Assembly: GCA_022824405.1 (NCBI GenBank)
Contig: JAJDZZ010000082.1
Span: 1 to 44,853, forward strand
Reading direction: 5' to 3'
DNA from: Opitutales bacterium
GTDB taxonomy: Bacteria; Verrucomicrobiota; Verrucomicrobiia; Opitutales; UBA2995
Length of the DNA stretch: 44,853 nt
Under the pieces are notes generated by a model, which saw nothing but the letters and a program-made list of their open reading frames with translations, searched no databases and was not told the DNA's origin. Positions 5,177 through 44,853 of this stretch are shown here, piece by piece; position 1 is the first letter of the stretch; each line of letters opens with the position of its first letter. The position numbers and the translations under genes were made by a program.

Positions 5177-5492
5177 CCGGATTCGGAGAGAAGAGGAAAA
5201 ACCACAGAGGACACAGAGAGAGGAGCGCGCTGAGGCGCGCCAATTAGGAATTAGGAATTGAGAAAGAGGTTAACCACGGATTACACGGATAGGCACGGAT
5301 TTAAATGAGGAATCGGGAGGAGACCTTGGCGATCTTGGGGATCTTGGCGAGAGTCAATTTCTTCACCCTCATTCGATCACGATCACGATCAGGATCACGA
5401 TTATTGTCAGCTTTATCTTCCTTCTTGCTTCCTCCTCTGTGTCCTCTGGGTTCTCTGTGGTTATTCTCTCCTAATCGGTGGTTTAGACTTTC
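5177..5492. repeat. Repeat string upstream of the U32 gene
   Basis: No gene is seen. It contains a GCGCGC-TGAG-GCGCGC hairpin followed by CAATTAGGAATTAGG (5228-5255), an ACCACGGATTACACGGAT word, TTGGCGAGAGTC (5344-5355), four GATCACG/GATCAGG units (5373-5402), and the CTCTGTGTCCTCTGGGTTCTCTGTGG word. The word order is the same as at 960-1145, 6460-6590 and 12900-13075. Confidence 0.75.
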
Positions 5493-5954: not shown

Positions 5955-5961
5955 GAATTTG

Positions 5962-5979
5962 ATCTCGCCAAGGCGAGAT
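5962..5979. promoter_or_regulatory. Start-proximal palindrome before the RidA gene
   Basis: ATCTCGCC and GGCGAGAT pair with a two-base AA centre and end 7 bp before the RidA ATG (5954). The same palindrome with a three-base centre ends 5-6 bp before the tgt ATG (3306-3324), and an identical 18-mer lies near 919-936. It occupies the place of a Shine-Dalgarno site, so a role in translation or mRNA structure is possible but untested. Confidence 0.5.
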
Positions 5980-6459
5980 GGCACAAAGGCACAGAGGCAC
6001 AAAGGCACAAAGGTTGAGAGAGGTCAGGTTGAAGAGTCTTTAATGGAATAAATTAAGGCTGAAAGCATGCGGTCGATTTCAAATGTGAGATTTTCCAAAT
6101 CCGCAAATTGATCTTTCCCGATGAAATCCAGGTTGACTGAAATTTGCAACTGGGTTTGAAGTTCAAATAAGGAGCCGGACGCTATTTGAAGGAATCGAAT
6201 GTATTCTTGAGTGGACCTTCTTCCGTAACCTTCAGCAATGTTGCTTGGAATCGAAATAGAGCAGCGGCGGATTTGTGAAGTTAAGCCGTACACTTCAGAG
6301 GAAGGAAAATTGCGGGTCAGTCCATAGATTTTTGTCACCAAGTCGATTCCCTTTTGCCAAACGATCAAATCTCGATATGTTCTGACCCTGCTCACTTTGT
6401 GCCTTTGTGCCTTTGTGCCTTTGTGCCTTTGTGCCTTTGTGCCTTTGTGCCTTTGTGCC
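5980..6459 (-). mobile_element. Putative cassette: IVS gene between inverted octamer arrays
   Basis: The four-helix-bundle gene (6024-6395) lies between a left array of four GGCACAAA-type units (5980-6011) and a right array of exactly eight TTTGTGCC units (6396-6459). The arrays are reverse complements of each other, so the gene is bounded by inverted repeats. The GTG start codon directly adjoins the right array. Two broken copies of the same gene elsewhere (12768-12890, 25425-25465) carry the same array at their start. No transposase is encoded inside, so any movement would need help from elsewhere or homologous recombination. Confidence 0.5.
6024..6395 (-). CDS. Four-helix bundle protein (23S rRNA IVS / S23 family)
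   Basis: A 123-residue helical protein of the family first noted inside 23S rRNA intervening sequences and related to the Avd accessory protein of diversity-generating retroelements. Family hallmarks are the opening YRDLIVWQKGIDLVTKIY, the middle TSQIRRCSISIPSNIAEGYGRRS, and the third-helix pattern FLQIASGSLFELQTQL. It starts with GTG at 6395, immediately next to eight TTTGTGCC units. No reverse transcriptase and no 23S gene is nearby, so the role is unknown. Two truncated copies are present in the window, which suggests that the gene has been copied about. Confidence 0.9.
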   Translation of the reverse strand: MSRVRTYRDLIVWQKGIDLVTKIYGLTRNFPSSEVYGLTSQIRRCSISIPSNIAEGYGRRSTQEYIRFLQIASGSLFELQTQLQISVNLDFIGKDQFADLENLTFEIDRMLSALIYSIKDSST

Positions 6460-6573
6460 TTTTCTTATCGGTCTTGGCGATCTTGGCGAGAGTCCCTTCT
6501 ATATTCGATCACGATTAATTTCAGGATCTTCATCCTTTCTCCCTCTCTCTGTGGTCTCTGTGGTTAATCTCTC

Positions 6574-12585: not shown

Positions 12586-13082
12586 GCACAAAGGCACAGA
12601 GGCACAAAGGCACGGAGGCACAAAGGGGGGGAGAGGCGCGCTGGGACGCGCCAATTAGGAATTAGGAATGAGGAATGAGGAATTGGGGAGAAGGGAGTGG
12701 TGGAATGATGGAAGGTTGGAGTAGTGGAGTGAGGAATCGCAGATGGGGCAGATAAGCGCAGATTTTTTTGCGAAGTTAAGCCGTACATTTCAGAGGCGGG
12801 AAAATTGCGGGTCCAGCCATAGATTTTTGTCACCAAGTCGATTCCCTTTTGCTAAACGATCAAATCTCGATAGGTTCTGATCCCGCCCACTTTGTGCCTT
12901 TTCTTAGCGTTCTTGGCGTGCTTTGCGAGAGTTAATTCTTCACCATCAATAGACCACGATAATGATTAATTTTCAGCCTTCAGCTTTCTTCCTTTTCCCT
13001 CCTCTCTGTTTCCTCTGTGTTCTCTGTGGTTAATTTCTTCTAATTCCTAATTCTTCATTGGCGCCATTGGCGCCTATAATCC
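12586..13082. repeat. Repeat-filled region with decayed IVS gene
   Basis: This gap of about 500 bp has no intact gene. It holds five GCACAAAGG-type octamers (12586-12625), a GGCGCG-CTGGGA-CGCGCC hairpin followed by AATTAGGAATTAGG (12633-12669), an ATCTGCG-type word, the truncated IVS gene (12768-12890), one TTTGTGCC unit (12891-12898), then the standard string: GCGAGAGTT, CACGATAATGATTA, CAGCCTTCAGC, CTCTGTGTTCTCTGTGGTTA, CCTAATTC and a GGCGCC-ATT-GGCGCC hairpin (13059-13073). Confidence 0.75.
12768..12890 (-). pseudogene. Truncated four-helix bundle (IVS) gene, copy B
   Basis: Reading from the GTG at 12890, the sequence follows the intact IVS gene at 6024-6395 closely for about 120 bp. The tryptophan codon in LIVWQ is TAG, an in-frame stop. 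The match ends after GGCTTAACTTC at about 12770 and continues directly into a repeat word (ATCTGCGCTTATCTGCCC). The start is joined to a single TTTGTGCC unit. It is therefore a dead copy, cut off about one third of the way through. Confidence 0.85.
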
Positions 13083-25213: not shown

Positions 25214-25538
25214 AATTAGGAATTAGGAATTAGGAATGTTTCGATTTGGGAGTTGGCGGGTGGAGGAAAGGCCTCATTCGATCACGATCACGATTATCCG
25301 TGCTCATCCGTGTGATCCGTGGTTCATCTTTCTCCCAATTCCTAATTCCTAATTCTTAATTCCTAATTGGCGCCATCGGCGCCTCTTAGCGGTCTTTGCG
25401 AGCTTTGCGAGAGTCCTTCTCTATTGCCAAACGATCATATCTCGATATCTTCTGACCCCGCTCACTTTGTGCCTTTGTGCCTTTGTGCCTTTGTGCCTTT
25501 GTGCCTTTGTGCCTTTGTGCCTTTGTGCCTTTTCGAGT
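25214..25538. repeat. Repeat string containing IVS gene remnant
   Basis: No intact gene. AATTAGG units (25215-25235), GATCACG units (25277-25297), ATCCGTGTGATCCGTGGTT (25303-25322), CCTAATT units (25338-25370), a GGCGCC-ATC-GGCGCC hairpin (25370-25384), GCGAGAGTCC, the IVS remnant (25425-25465) and eight TTTGTGCC octamers (25466-25529) that end about 10 bp from the next gene's stop codon. Confidence 0.75.
25425..25465 (-). pseudogene. IVS gene remnant, copy C
   Basis: Only the first 14 codons of the four-helix-bundle gene remain, reading MSGVRRYRDMIVWQ from the GTG at 25465, followed by TAG and then the GAGAAGGACTCTCGC repeat word. The start is joined to eight TTTGTGCC units (25466-25529), the same number and spacing as at the intact copy (6396-6459). 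There is no matching left array. Confidence 0.8.
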
Positions 25539-42670: not shown

Positions 42671-42928
42671 TCAGGAATTTTCTCTTAAAATGCTGAAATA
42701 CTCTTCAGCTGACATGGAGCATTGAGCGAGTCGTTGAAGCTTACTCAATGGAAGACCTAGATCGTTGATTAGGTGTTTATGATCACTTTTTCTGCCGTGT
42801 CTGATAGAAAATCTGTAGGCTTTACCATTGACCCTGAATTTGAACCACATGTGTTTTGCCTTTTTTCTTTTTACGCGTTCAGCATCGATTTTCCTGGCAA
42901 TTTTTTGAGCATCATTTCTCTGTAACAT
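42671..42928 (-). CDS. HicA-like / RNA-binding toxin-like small protein
   Basis: An 85-residue basic protein. The middle KKAKHMWFKFRVNGKAYRFSIRHGRKSDHKHLINDL has a conserved-looking Phe-x-Phe core and basic strand, then LGLPLSKLQRLAQCSMSAEEYFSILRE. The build recalls the short HicA-like proteins ending in CxLSxExY. It overlaps the upstream gene by 17 bp, so the two are co-translated. Its role as a toxin is a guess from size, base content and gene pairing; it could also be an uncharacterised small protein. It is AT-rich, unlike the neighbouring metabolic genes. Confidence 0.6.
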   Translation of the reverse strand: MLQRNDAQKIARKIDAERVKRKKAKHMWFKFRVNGKAYRFSIRHGRKSDHKHLINDLGLPLSKLQRLAQCSMSAEEYFSILRENS

Positions 42929-43283
42929 GCCGTTCTTTTATATAGGAAAGGACGGTTTTCACATCCTTGGTAAAATCCGGATCATTTCGAAATACTTTCA
43001 AAAAATCCATGATGGTATAGGCAAGCTCATCTCGCGCATTGGATTTACTGTATCCAGTCATTGAGATATTAGCTTCCTTAAAGACGGCCACGCACGATTC
43101 AGGCTCTTCGTGTTCAAATTCGATTGGAATTGGCCGTAATATTTCGTACCGATCCAAAAACTCCCGTGGAATTTCTTTTATGACATGGGGTTCAGGCGGA
43201 GCTATAATGGTTCCATCTTCCGTCCGATATTCTGACCACGGTTCTTCAACCGTCTTATGAGAATCTCGTTTTGGTTTTGGCAT
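42912..43283 (-). CDS. HicB-like putative antitoxin partner
   Basis: A 123-residue protein. The N-terminal part is proline-rich (PPEPHVIKEIPREFLDRY), and the C-terminal part has IEFEHEEPESCVAVFKEANISMTGYSKSNARDELAYTIMDFLKVF, which recalls the HicB fold in which a beta-strand, a TGxT-like turn and a helix follow each other. It starts at the ATG 43283 (AAGGAG 12 bp before) or possibly at 43310. It precedes the HicA-like gene and overlaps it by 17 bp. The order antitoxin-like then toxin-like is less usual for hicAB but known. Evidence for a working pair is indirect. Confidence 0.55.
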   Translation of the reverse strand: MPKPKRDSHKTVEEPWSEYRTEDGTIIAPPEPHVIKEIPREFLDRYEILRPIPIEFEHEEPESCVAVFKEANISMTGYSKSNARDELAYTIMDFLKVFRNDPDFTKDVKTVLSYIKERHVTEK

Positions 43284-43797
43284 AGTCTTCCAATTCTCCT
43301 TTTTCCCCATGGGGACAAATCACTCCCCCTTTGCCCCGATGGAACCGTAAAATCCTGTAATCAGTCAATGGAATTGCGGAGTCTCTTCCTCGATGACGGA
43401 GGGTAACCACGGATTTCATGGATGGGCACGGATTTAAAATAAAACAACGCTTCGCTTGATGCCTACGGCAACAGGATGGCACTGCGTGCCAACAGGAAAA
43501 CAAATCAAAAAAATCCTGTTCGCAAAACGATCCTGTTCCGGCAAAGCCGGACCAAGCGACTGAAAGGAGCGTTGTTCAACTTCTTCCTCTGCGCTGCTTG
43601 GCGTGCTTGGCCAATTGCGTGACTTGTCCGCTTGGCGAGAGTCAATTCCCTTTTCCGTAAGGATGCGGAATCGATATCGATATCTTGGTGCCGACTTGGT
43701 GCCATCTCGCCTCAGCAAAATCCCATTCCTAATTCCTCATTCCTAATTCCTAATTGGCGCCTCTGGGCGCCCCCTCCCCATGCGGCCGGTTGGGAAT
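43284..43797. repeat. Repeat region with right flank of the HicAB-like pair
   Basis: About 510 bp. A purine/pyrimidine-rich lead (43284-43404), the right direct repeat (43405-43643), TTCCCTTTTCCG, an interrupted ATCTCGCC word (43704-43711), CCTAATTCC units (43726-43757), and a GGCGCC-TCTG-GGCGCC hairpin (43756-43771) 23 bp beyond the RAYT stop codon in its direction of reading. Confidence 0.7.
43405..43643 (+). repeat. Right direct repeat flanking the HicAB-like pair
   Basis: About 239 bp matching 42343-42611. Together the two copies enclose about 790 bp with the gene pair. Recombination between them would delete the pair. Confidence 0.8.
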
Positions 43798-44766
43798 TCA
43801 GGAGAAAATTCCTTTTCTCAAATCGCGCATCACCATCAACCCCGAATCCTTCAGGCCCAGCATGGGCCGCGCCCCCGAAGTCCGACGTTTCCCAAATAGA
43901 CCGCGATGCGTCTCGAATATCCCGTTCACGTAATCCTTCGAGCCGAGAACCATGCCATCGGTAAAATAACGTACCCGCAGCCTCAACACCTGTCCCAGCG
44001 GCAAGGTTCCATCAGCTTCCAATACCTTTCTGACCGCCTCGCGGTCCATCGCTTTCTGGCCTTCCCGCGATGTCGTCGCTCCCATCAGGAACAGAATCTT
44101 GCGATACTCCGACAAGGCGGCCTTCCCAGCCTTCATGGCAAGCGCACGACACAGCCCACTTCGCGCTTCGATGTTCCCGGCCACCGCCTCGGAGTAGCCG
44201 CAGTAACGATAGTCCTTGGGATCCTCCACCAGGCTCGCCCGCACCGGGTTCAAGTCTATGTAAGCGGCCACCGCACCCAAACAACTCGCCGTATCCTCGA
44301 TCAGCACGCTCTTGAACCGCTCCGCCCACAAGGTCCCGTAACGCCGGTGTGTACGGTTATACCAGATGCTGAAGCGTTGCTTCAACTCTTTCATATACAA
44401 CGATATATCCCCCATCCGCGCCAGGAGCCTCTCCCGTTCCGCCTGCGCTTGATCCCCTCCCTTTTTAAGGATGCCCTCCAAGGTTTCCACCCGCCCCTTT
44501 TGCCGCCCGTACAATTCGCAAAACCGGGCCAATAATTCCGTGTCATCGACTTCCTGATTTTCCGGCACCCGCACCAGGACGTGGAAGTGGTTGGTCATGA
44601 TGCAATAGGTCAGAATTTCCACCCCGCAGAAACGGGCCATGTACCACATCTGCTTGCGCAACACTTCCTTAGCCCGATTATCCAACAGCATCGCGCCACC
44701 CACCACGCGCGTCACGCAGTGATACACCGCACTTTGCCCCTTCACCTTCAACCTGGACGTTCTCAT
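43798..44766 (-). CDS. REP-associated tyrosine transposase (RAYT, Y1/HUH)
   Basis: A 322-residue single-strand DNA transposase-like protein of the IS200/RAYT group. The HUH motif is His60-Phe-His62 in LTYCIMTNHFHVLV, the start is QSAVYHCVTRVVGG, and the third block is YMKELKQRFSIWYNRTHRRYGTLWAERFKS, which holds the expected catalytic tyrosine (Tyr of WYN is a candidate). AAYIDLNPVRASLVEDPKDYRYCGYSE is a family landmark. In this family the protein cuts and joins at REP hairpins. GTAG REPs occur at 41166 and 42253. The start is taken at 44766, and a longer in-frame start at 44835 is possible. It lacks terminal inverted repeats, as is usual for RAYTs. Confidence 0.93.
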   Translation of the reverse strand: MRTSRLKVKGQSAVYHCVTRVVGGAMLLDNRAKEVLRKQMWYMARFCGVEILTYCIMTNHFHVLVRVPENQEVDDTELLARFCELYGRQKGRVETLEGILKKGGDQAQAERERLLARMGDISLYMKELKQRFSIWYNRTHRRYGTLWAERFKSVLIEDTASCLGAVAAYIDLNPVRASLVEDPKDYRYCGYSEAVAGNIEARSGLCRALAMKAGKAALSEYRKILFLMGATTSREGQKAMDREAVRKVLEADGTLPLGQVLRLRVRYFTDGMVLGSKDYVNGIFETHRGLFGKRRTSGARPMLGLKDSGLMVMRDLRKGIFS

Positions 44767-44853
44767 ACCCCCCACCCTGCCCATTCCTAATCCCCTGTCA
44801 ACAAATTTTAGCCTGTCCCTTTTAATCTCCCCCATGGGTGTCCACCTTTGATC

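Follow-up and report, generated by a model that had tools for sequence, protein, structure and literature searches.

We consider it likely that the feature examined here is a mobile element made up of a single IVP gene (PF05635, the four-helix-bundle family of 23S rRNA intervening sequences, IVS) that is bounded at either end by an array of 7-8-bp repeats, each array mirroring the other. It lies in a stretch of 44,853 nucleotides from an Opitutales bacterium (the window), where the whole element spans 5978..6462 on the minus strand, within the intergenic region 5957..6571. Its sole gene (6024..6395, minus strand) encodes 123 amino acids from a GTG start and is enclosed by inverted GGCACAAA/TTTGTGCC arrays. 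An earlier sequence-only reading of this DNA had described a four-unit and an eight-unit array, reverse complements of each other, with the GTG start abutting the latter; this is correct, except that the four-unit array has one variant unit. The array on the 5' side of the gene (6396..6459, minus strand) has eight perfect units, (GGCACAAA)8 on the gene strand and (TTTGTGCC)8 on the plus strand. The array on the 3' side (5980..6011, minus strand) has four 8-bp units that read TTTGTGCC TTTGTGCC TCTGTGCC TTTGTGCC on the gene strand, or GGCACAAA with a variant second unit, GGCACAGA, on the plus strand. The window holds 25 exact octamers where 1.8 are expected by chance, a number reached in 0 of 100 shuffles. 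When the minus-strand RNA of the element is folded, the arrays form a long terminal stem that encloses the reading frame (MFE -152.5 kcal/mol, z -6.06).

Profile searches match the encoded protein to PF05635 (E 1.6e-40, 138 bits, cut-off 33.8), TIGR02436 (132.9 bits, cut-off 24) and NF008911. Its match to PF22296 (Avd) is weaker (E 3.9e-8), and its 24.7 bits against the Avd equivalog model DivGenRetAVD fall below the cut-off of 80. The element does not lie in a 23S rRNA helix: a YjgF-like gene borders it on one side and another protein-coding gene follows downstream. No Y1 transposase was found within the element itself.

The same profile search yields 10 PF05635 matches in the genome to which the window belongs. 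Three other sites hold copies of the GGCACAAA family: L002, L006 and L010, the last being a remnant. The 3' array TTTGTGCC-TTTGTGCC-TCTGTGCC-TTTGTGCC, variant unit included, is common to L001, L002 and L006, and the homology among these three stops at the array ends. Other IVP copies in this genome have GGCTGAA/GGAAGAA arrays (L005 and L007) or GGGAAGA-type arrays (L003, L008 and L009). There are also about 20 truncated copies in which a long GGCACAAA array adjoins the initial 45-90 bp of the gene, beyond which the DNA is unrelated. Two broken copies at which the junction of gene and array had been said to recur were found in the window. One, at 12767..12901 on the minus strand (L249/L010), retains the 5' end of the gene and one array unit at 93% identity, and a GGCACAAA-type array lies on its far side (12586..12626, plus strand). 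The other, at 25417..25532 on the minus strand, with the junction at 25417-25529, retains about 44 bp of the 5' end of the gene and an eight-unit array. The sequence-only reading had drawn attention to the eight units shared by the arrays at 6396-6459 and 25466-25529; the count stands, but we do not regard it as meaningful because arrays with the IVP 5' junction elsewhere in the genome vary between a single unit and more than 15, in a short-read assembly that may shorten arrays, so the equal number is probably a coincidence. Two-unit matches, (TTTGTGCC)2, number 391 genome-wide, mostly without an adjoining IVP gene, and given the truncated copies that join an array to the 5' end of the gene, many of them are plausibly derivatives of the window element.

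Comparison of occupied and empty sites demonstrates that the cassette is mobile. In cyanobacterial plasmids of T. variabilis and Scytonema, an IVP element splits AAAAAGTAATTAACAAAT; in four plasmids with 97-98% identity this sequence is uninterrupted. Where the element is present, the site reads AAAAA-GTAAT-(AAATCAGAATTCAG...IVP...GTTCTTCTTT)-GTAAT-TAACAAAT, with the 5-bp sequence GTAAT duplicated, and the IVP site of Nostoc ATCC 53789 pNsp_a has a 5-bp target duplication of TTCTA. Insertion with a 5-bp duplication is thereby seen directly at two sites. Among about seven occupied/empty sites these are the only clean duplications, and they come from a single cyanobacterial subfamily; the remaining junctions have diverged or lost bases. 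Picosynechococcus PCC 7003 has an IVP gene between cas10 and cmr3 where the PCC 7002 site is empty, and Aulosira (compared with Microchaete), Nostoc C052 (compared with C057) and pNsp_c likewise differ by presence or absence, in each case with no clean duplication. When whole plasmids were mined for more array insertions, the IVP insertions of T. variabilis and Scytonema came up again, along with insertions lacking arrays and, in W06, a single insert that has array flanks and no duplication. At the spot occupied in T. variabilis, Brasilonema has an array-only hairpin. The region orthologous to that of the window element in a sister species (G001:C116; flanks 92% and 90% identical) has no IVP gene and contains other inverted arrays. 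Taken together, the occupied and empty sites, the two clean 5-bp duplications, the truncated derivatives and the copies whose homology stops at the arrays support the sequence-only proposal of a small mobile cassette.

To assess the generality of the arrangement, we reverse-complemented the downstream flank of each gene and aligned it locally to the upstream flank, using a score cut-off of 29. Inverted arrays of 7-8-bp units were found at 44 of 73 IVP genes from related genomes, at 56 of 80 from 80 named genomes that span many phyla and include one archaeon, and at 16 of 19 from viral contigs. By the same measure, arrays flank 6 of 132 other reading frames in the same 8-kb loci, 6 of 424 shifted windows and none of 22 HepT genes (Fisher p 7e-19 and 6e-48), and 1.5% of mismatched flank pairs reach the cut-off. 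The possibility that such arrays are equally common at other genes is therefore contradicted, at 60-70% of IVP genes versus 1-5% of controls. These surveys show that IVP genes of many phyla have inverted-array ends. The octamer of the window is not general, since the unit differs between IVP lineages. The 30-40% of IVP genes below the cut-off include many at which degenerate arrays are still visible. A tblastn search of a phage collection found no IVP gene. The top-scoring control reading frame (score 55) proved to be a GxxExxY gene, and 24 of 30 GxxExxY genes have inverted arrays. Within 6 kb of another contig of the same genome (G000:C92, 4795-10736), one IVP gene and two GxxExxY genes with nearly identical scores form an island of array-flanked genes. 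Nested inverted arrays of ACCACAGAGGACACAGAG, CACGGATTACACGGAT, AATTAGG and CGCCAAGATCGCC, as seen around GxxExxY genes, occur at 5183-5480 of the window and in many intergenic regions. At 42671-43310 (minus strand), two adjacent small reading frames with no NCBIfam match have CACGGATTT-type repeats on either side and are perhaps another small cassette.

Five IVP elements are nested in longer same-strand reading frames, all in relative frame +2, with the host frame open through the element. An open frame was required in this search, and cases in which the frame is closed or spliced are therefore also compatible with the data. In a dnaE gene on a viral contig (L312, 1101-4937), the product aligns to 5fku as 28-590 and 787-1243; an insert of about 196 residues lies between residues 579 and 582, after which homology to the E. 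coli polymerase III alpha subunit resumes. Similarly, a BrxX protein (L308) aligns to 9ewz as 161-686 and 835-1023, with an insert of about 148 residues. The nested IVP genes of L067 and L192 lie in methyltransferase genes, and the fifth case (L236) is weak, its upstream frame being short. IVP genes also occur in cas operons, in the order cas6-IVP-cas4 in Anabaena 90 pANA02 (L280) and Pseudanabaena galeata (L291) and cas10-IVP-cmr3 in Picosynechococcus PCC 7003 (L293). Comparison of the Anabaena 90 cas6-cas4 region with that of Dolichospermum did not yield an exact empty site, since the gap that holds the IVP element in Anabaena 90 is filled in Dolichospermum by a different, palindromic insert (GTTGGGTTGACGC...CTTAACCCAACCTAC; L289, 985-1330).

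The repeat unit varies from locus to locus, yet it is the same at both ends of one gene, and only close relatives have units in common between loci. Above 70% protein identity, 55% of locus pairs have matching arrays; below 50% identity, the figure is about 0.5% or lower. Within a locus, the match between the ends has a median score of 40. Agreement between the arms is 0.81 in register versus 0.74 when shifted by one unit, and is higher in register at 69 of 94 loci. The period is 7 bp at 67 IVP loci and 8 bp at 25, compared with mostly 9-10 bp for GxxExxY arrays. When mapped onto the IVP protein tree, the period changes 11 times, a value below that of all 200 shuffles (mean 21.4, minimum 17). 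This fit suggests that the arrays are recognised by the IVP protein, although period and unit could instead be inherited together with the gene, with no functional link.

Under the mobile-element reading, the arrays would serve as terminal inverted repeats by folding into hairpins, either in RNA or in single-stranded DNA, much like the stem of the 23S rRNA IVS. A pentameric, Avd-like IVP protein (the solved homologues 2gsc and 2rld have five chains each) probably recognises the array stem, given that the period follows the protein tree. Insertion would then proceed by a 5-bp staggered cut, and one arm may serve as the template for the other, which would keep the ends alike. Candidates for the catalytic step are IVP itself, a host nuclease or reverse transcriptase, and a factor acting in trans. 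We know of no transposase catalytic motif in IVP, and the similar ends of the unrelated GxxExxY genes suggest a shared trans factor rather than the IVP protein. Many scattered heptamer and octamer arrays would be remnants of IVP-type elements. A broader proposal, which we advance tentatively and rate at a little under an even chance, is that IVP genes, and in parallel GxxExxY genes, are widespread, minimal mobile elements that lack a fixed terminal sequence. Their inverted arrays would change together and be recognised by the cognate protein as a repeat geometry or hairpin, insertion would be polite (intergenic, or in-frame within genes), and decay of these elements would be a main source of the heptamer and octamer arrays scattered through bacterial genomes.

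Alternatively, IVP and GxxExxY could be passengers of a general mobile hairpin comparable to MITEs, REPs or Rickettsia palindromic elements (RPEs), the inverted arrays being moved by one common host process. Such ends do occur on two unrelated protein families, array-only derivatives are common, and in-frame insertion within genes resembles that of RPEs (PMC10969869). However, the period differs by family (7-8 for IVP, 9-10 for GxxExxY) and follows the IVP tree, so cognate proteins fit better, and we regard passenger status as rather unlikely.

The sequence-only reading had named a RAYT as a possible mover, and a RAYT or other Y1/HUH transposase acting in trans could recognise hairpin ends. 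This idea gains some weak support from co-occurrence, RAYT-like genes being present in 24 of 25 genomes with IVP versus 6 of 28 without, but genome size confounds that comparison. A RAYT-like gene adjoins the IVP locus in L106, and the window itself has a reading frame (43798-44835, minus strand) with a weak match to REP-associated tyrosine transposases (E 2.9e-10 at G000:C19:44200-44409). On the other hand, one genome with IVP (G044) has no detected RAYT, and five with GxxExxY (G017, G026, G036, G044 and G045) lack RAYT and have arrays in most of the cases examined. Y1 transposition makes no target duplication, unlike the two 5-bp duplications seen here. A RAYT acting in trans is possible and not favoured, and we judge this class of mover quite unlikely to be the explanation.

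The hairpin might also be selected at the RNA level for IVP expression or stability, with mobility incidental. On this proposal, the 5' array would supply a ribosome-binding site and the 3' array a protective stem, which accords with the strong terminal stem and with an inward strand that is G-rich at 48 loci and C-rich at 1. IVP genes are also co-directional with their neighbours in 105 cases and antiparallel in 8, but resident reading frames show an equivalent bias (171 versus 24; p 0.18 against IVP), and we therefore did not count orientation as evidence. Target duplications and truncated copies that retain the array are left unexplained by RNA-level selection, which we consider very unlikely. 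Finally, ordinary slippage-prone repeats, with IVP genes gathered in repeat-rich intergenic DNA and the inversion incidental, are extremely improbable: despite the abundance of two-unit matches away from IVP genes and the many other arrays in the window, control reading frames and shifted windows seldom have such flanks, both flanks of a gene have the same private unit, a match seldom reached by mismatched pairs, and isolated plasmid insertions carry the gene and both arrays at once, in a single step.

Both IVP genes and the heptamer arrays of bacteria are common, and for decades neither has had an explanation; the link between them gives the arrays a source. Free-standing IVP genes are recast as mobile elements, and those in CRISPR or BREX loci, such as those in the cas operons and inside brxX, therefore need not be functional parts of these systems. 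Guilt-by-association screens could take IVP genes in cas operons for CRISPR components; the 23S rRNA IVP is named in a figure legend on CRISPR-associated domains in one report (PMC10910872). If true, ends that change in sequence and yet match each other would be an unusual definition of a mobile element.

Among known systems, the Avd protein of DGRs (bAvd) is a four-helix bundle homologous to IVP, and the element was found to include neither a DGR reverse transcriptase nor a TR or VR. Genes of the GxxExxY family (TIGR04256) also have inverted arrays, but the protein is unrelated and the period is 9-10 rather than 7-8. The heptamer repeats of cyanobacteria (STRR), Beggiatoaceae and Xanthomonas/Nostoc share unit length and intergenic location with IVP arrays and have been described as regulatory or G-quadruplex sequences of unexplained origin. 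A mobile repeat-binding protein was proposed for the TAACTGA repeats of Beggiatoaceae (PMC4679880). The GGGNATC repeats of Xanthomonas and Nostoc are G-rich and lie between aligned ORFs, and two Xanthomonas genomes have 70-75 convergent inverted pairs each (PMC4692102). Term searches in the text of both papers gave no connection to IVP genes, nor did we find a paper joining IVP genes to heptamer arrays in the open-access literature, as distinct from subscription papers and preprints. TAACTGA and GGGAATA/GGGAACA units form the ends of some IVP genes here, and IVP cassettes probably explain the origin of many unexplained bacterial heptamer repeats. RPEs form hairpins and lie in-frame within protein genes (PMC10969869). 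Like the IVP element, RPEs and MITEs combine hairpins, in-frame insertion in genes and array-only (non-coding) copies; RPEs, however, are about 150 bp long, are known in Rickettsia and contribute an in-frame peptide to the host protein, whereas the IVP element has its gene in a separate frame and variable ends. The 23S rRNA IVS is sporadically distributed, and its mobility has long been suspected. Where it carries an S23/IVP reading frame (Coxiella, Leptospira), the protein is homologous and the frame lies inside a terminal inverted-repeat stem, as here; in Coxiella this is a 28 bp stem associated with RNase III (PMC4990558). Unlike that IVS, the element described here lies outside rRNA, between and inside protein genes, its stem is a short tandem array that differs in each lineage, and target duplications are seen.
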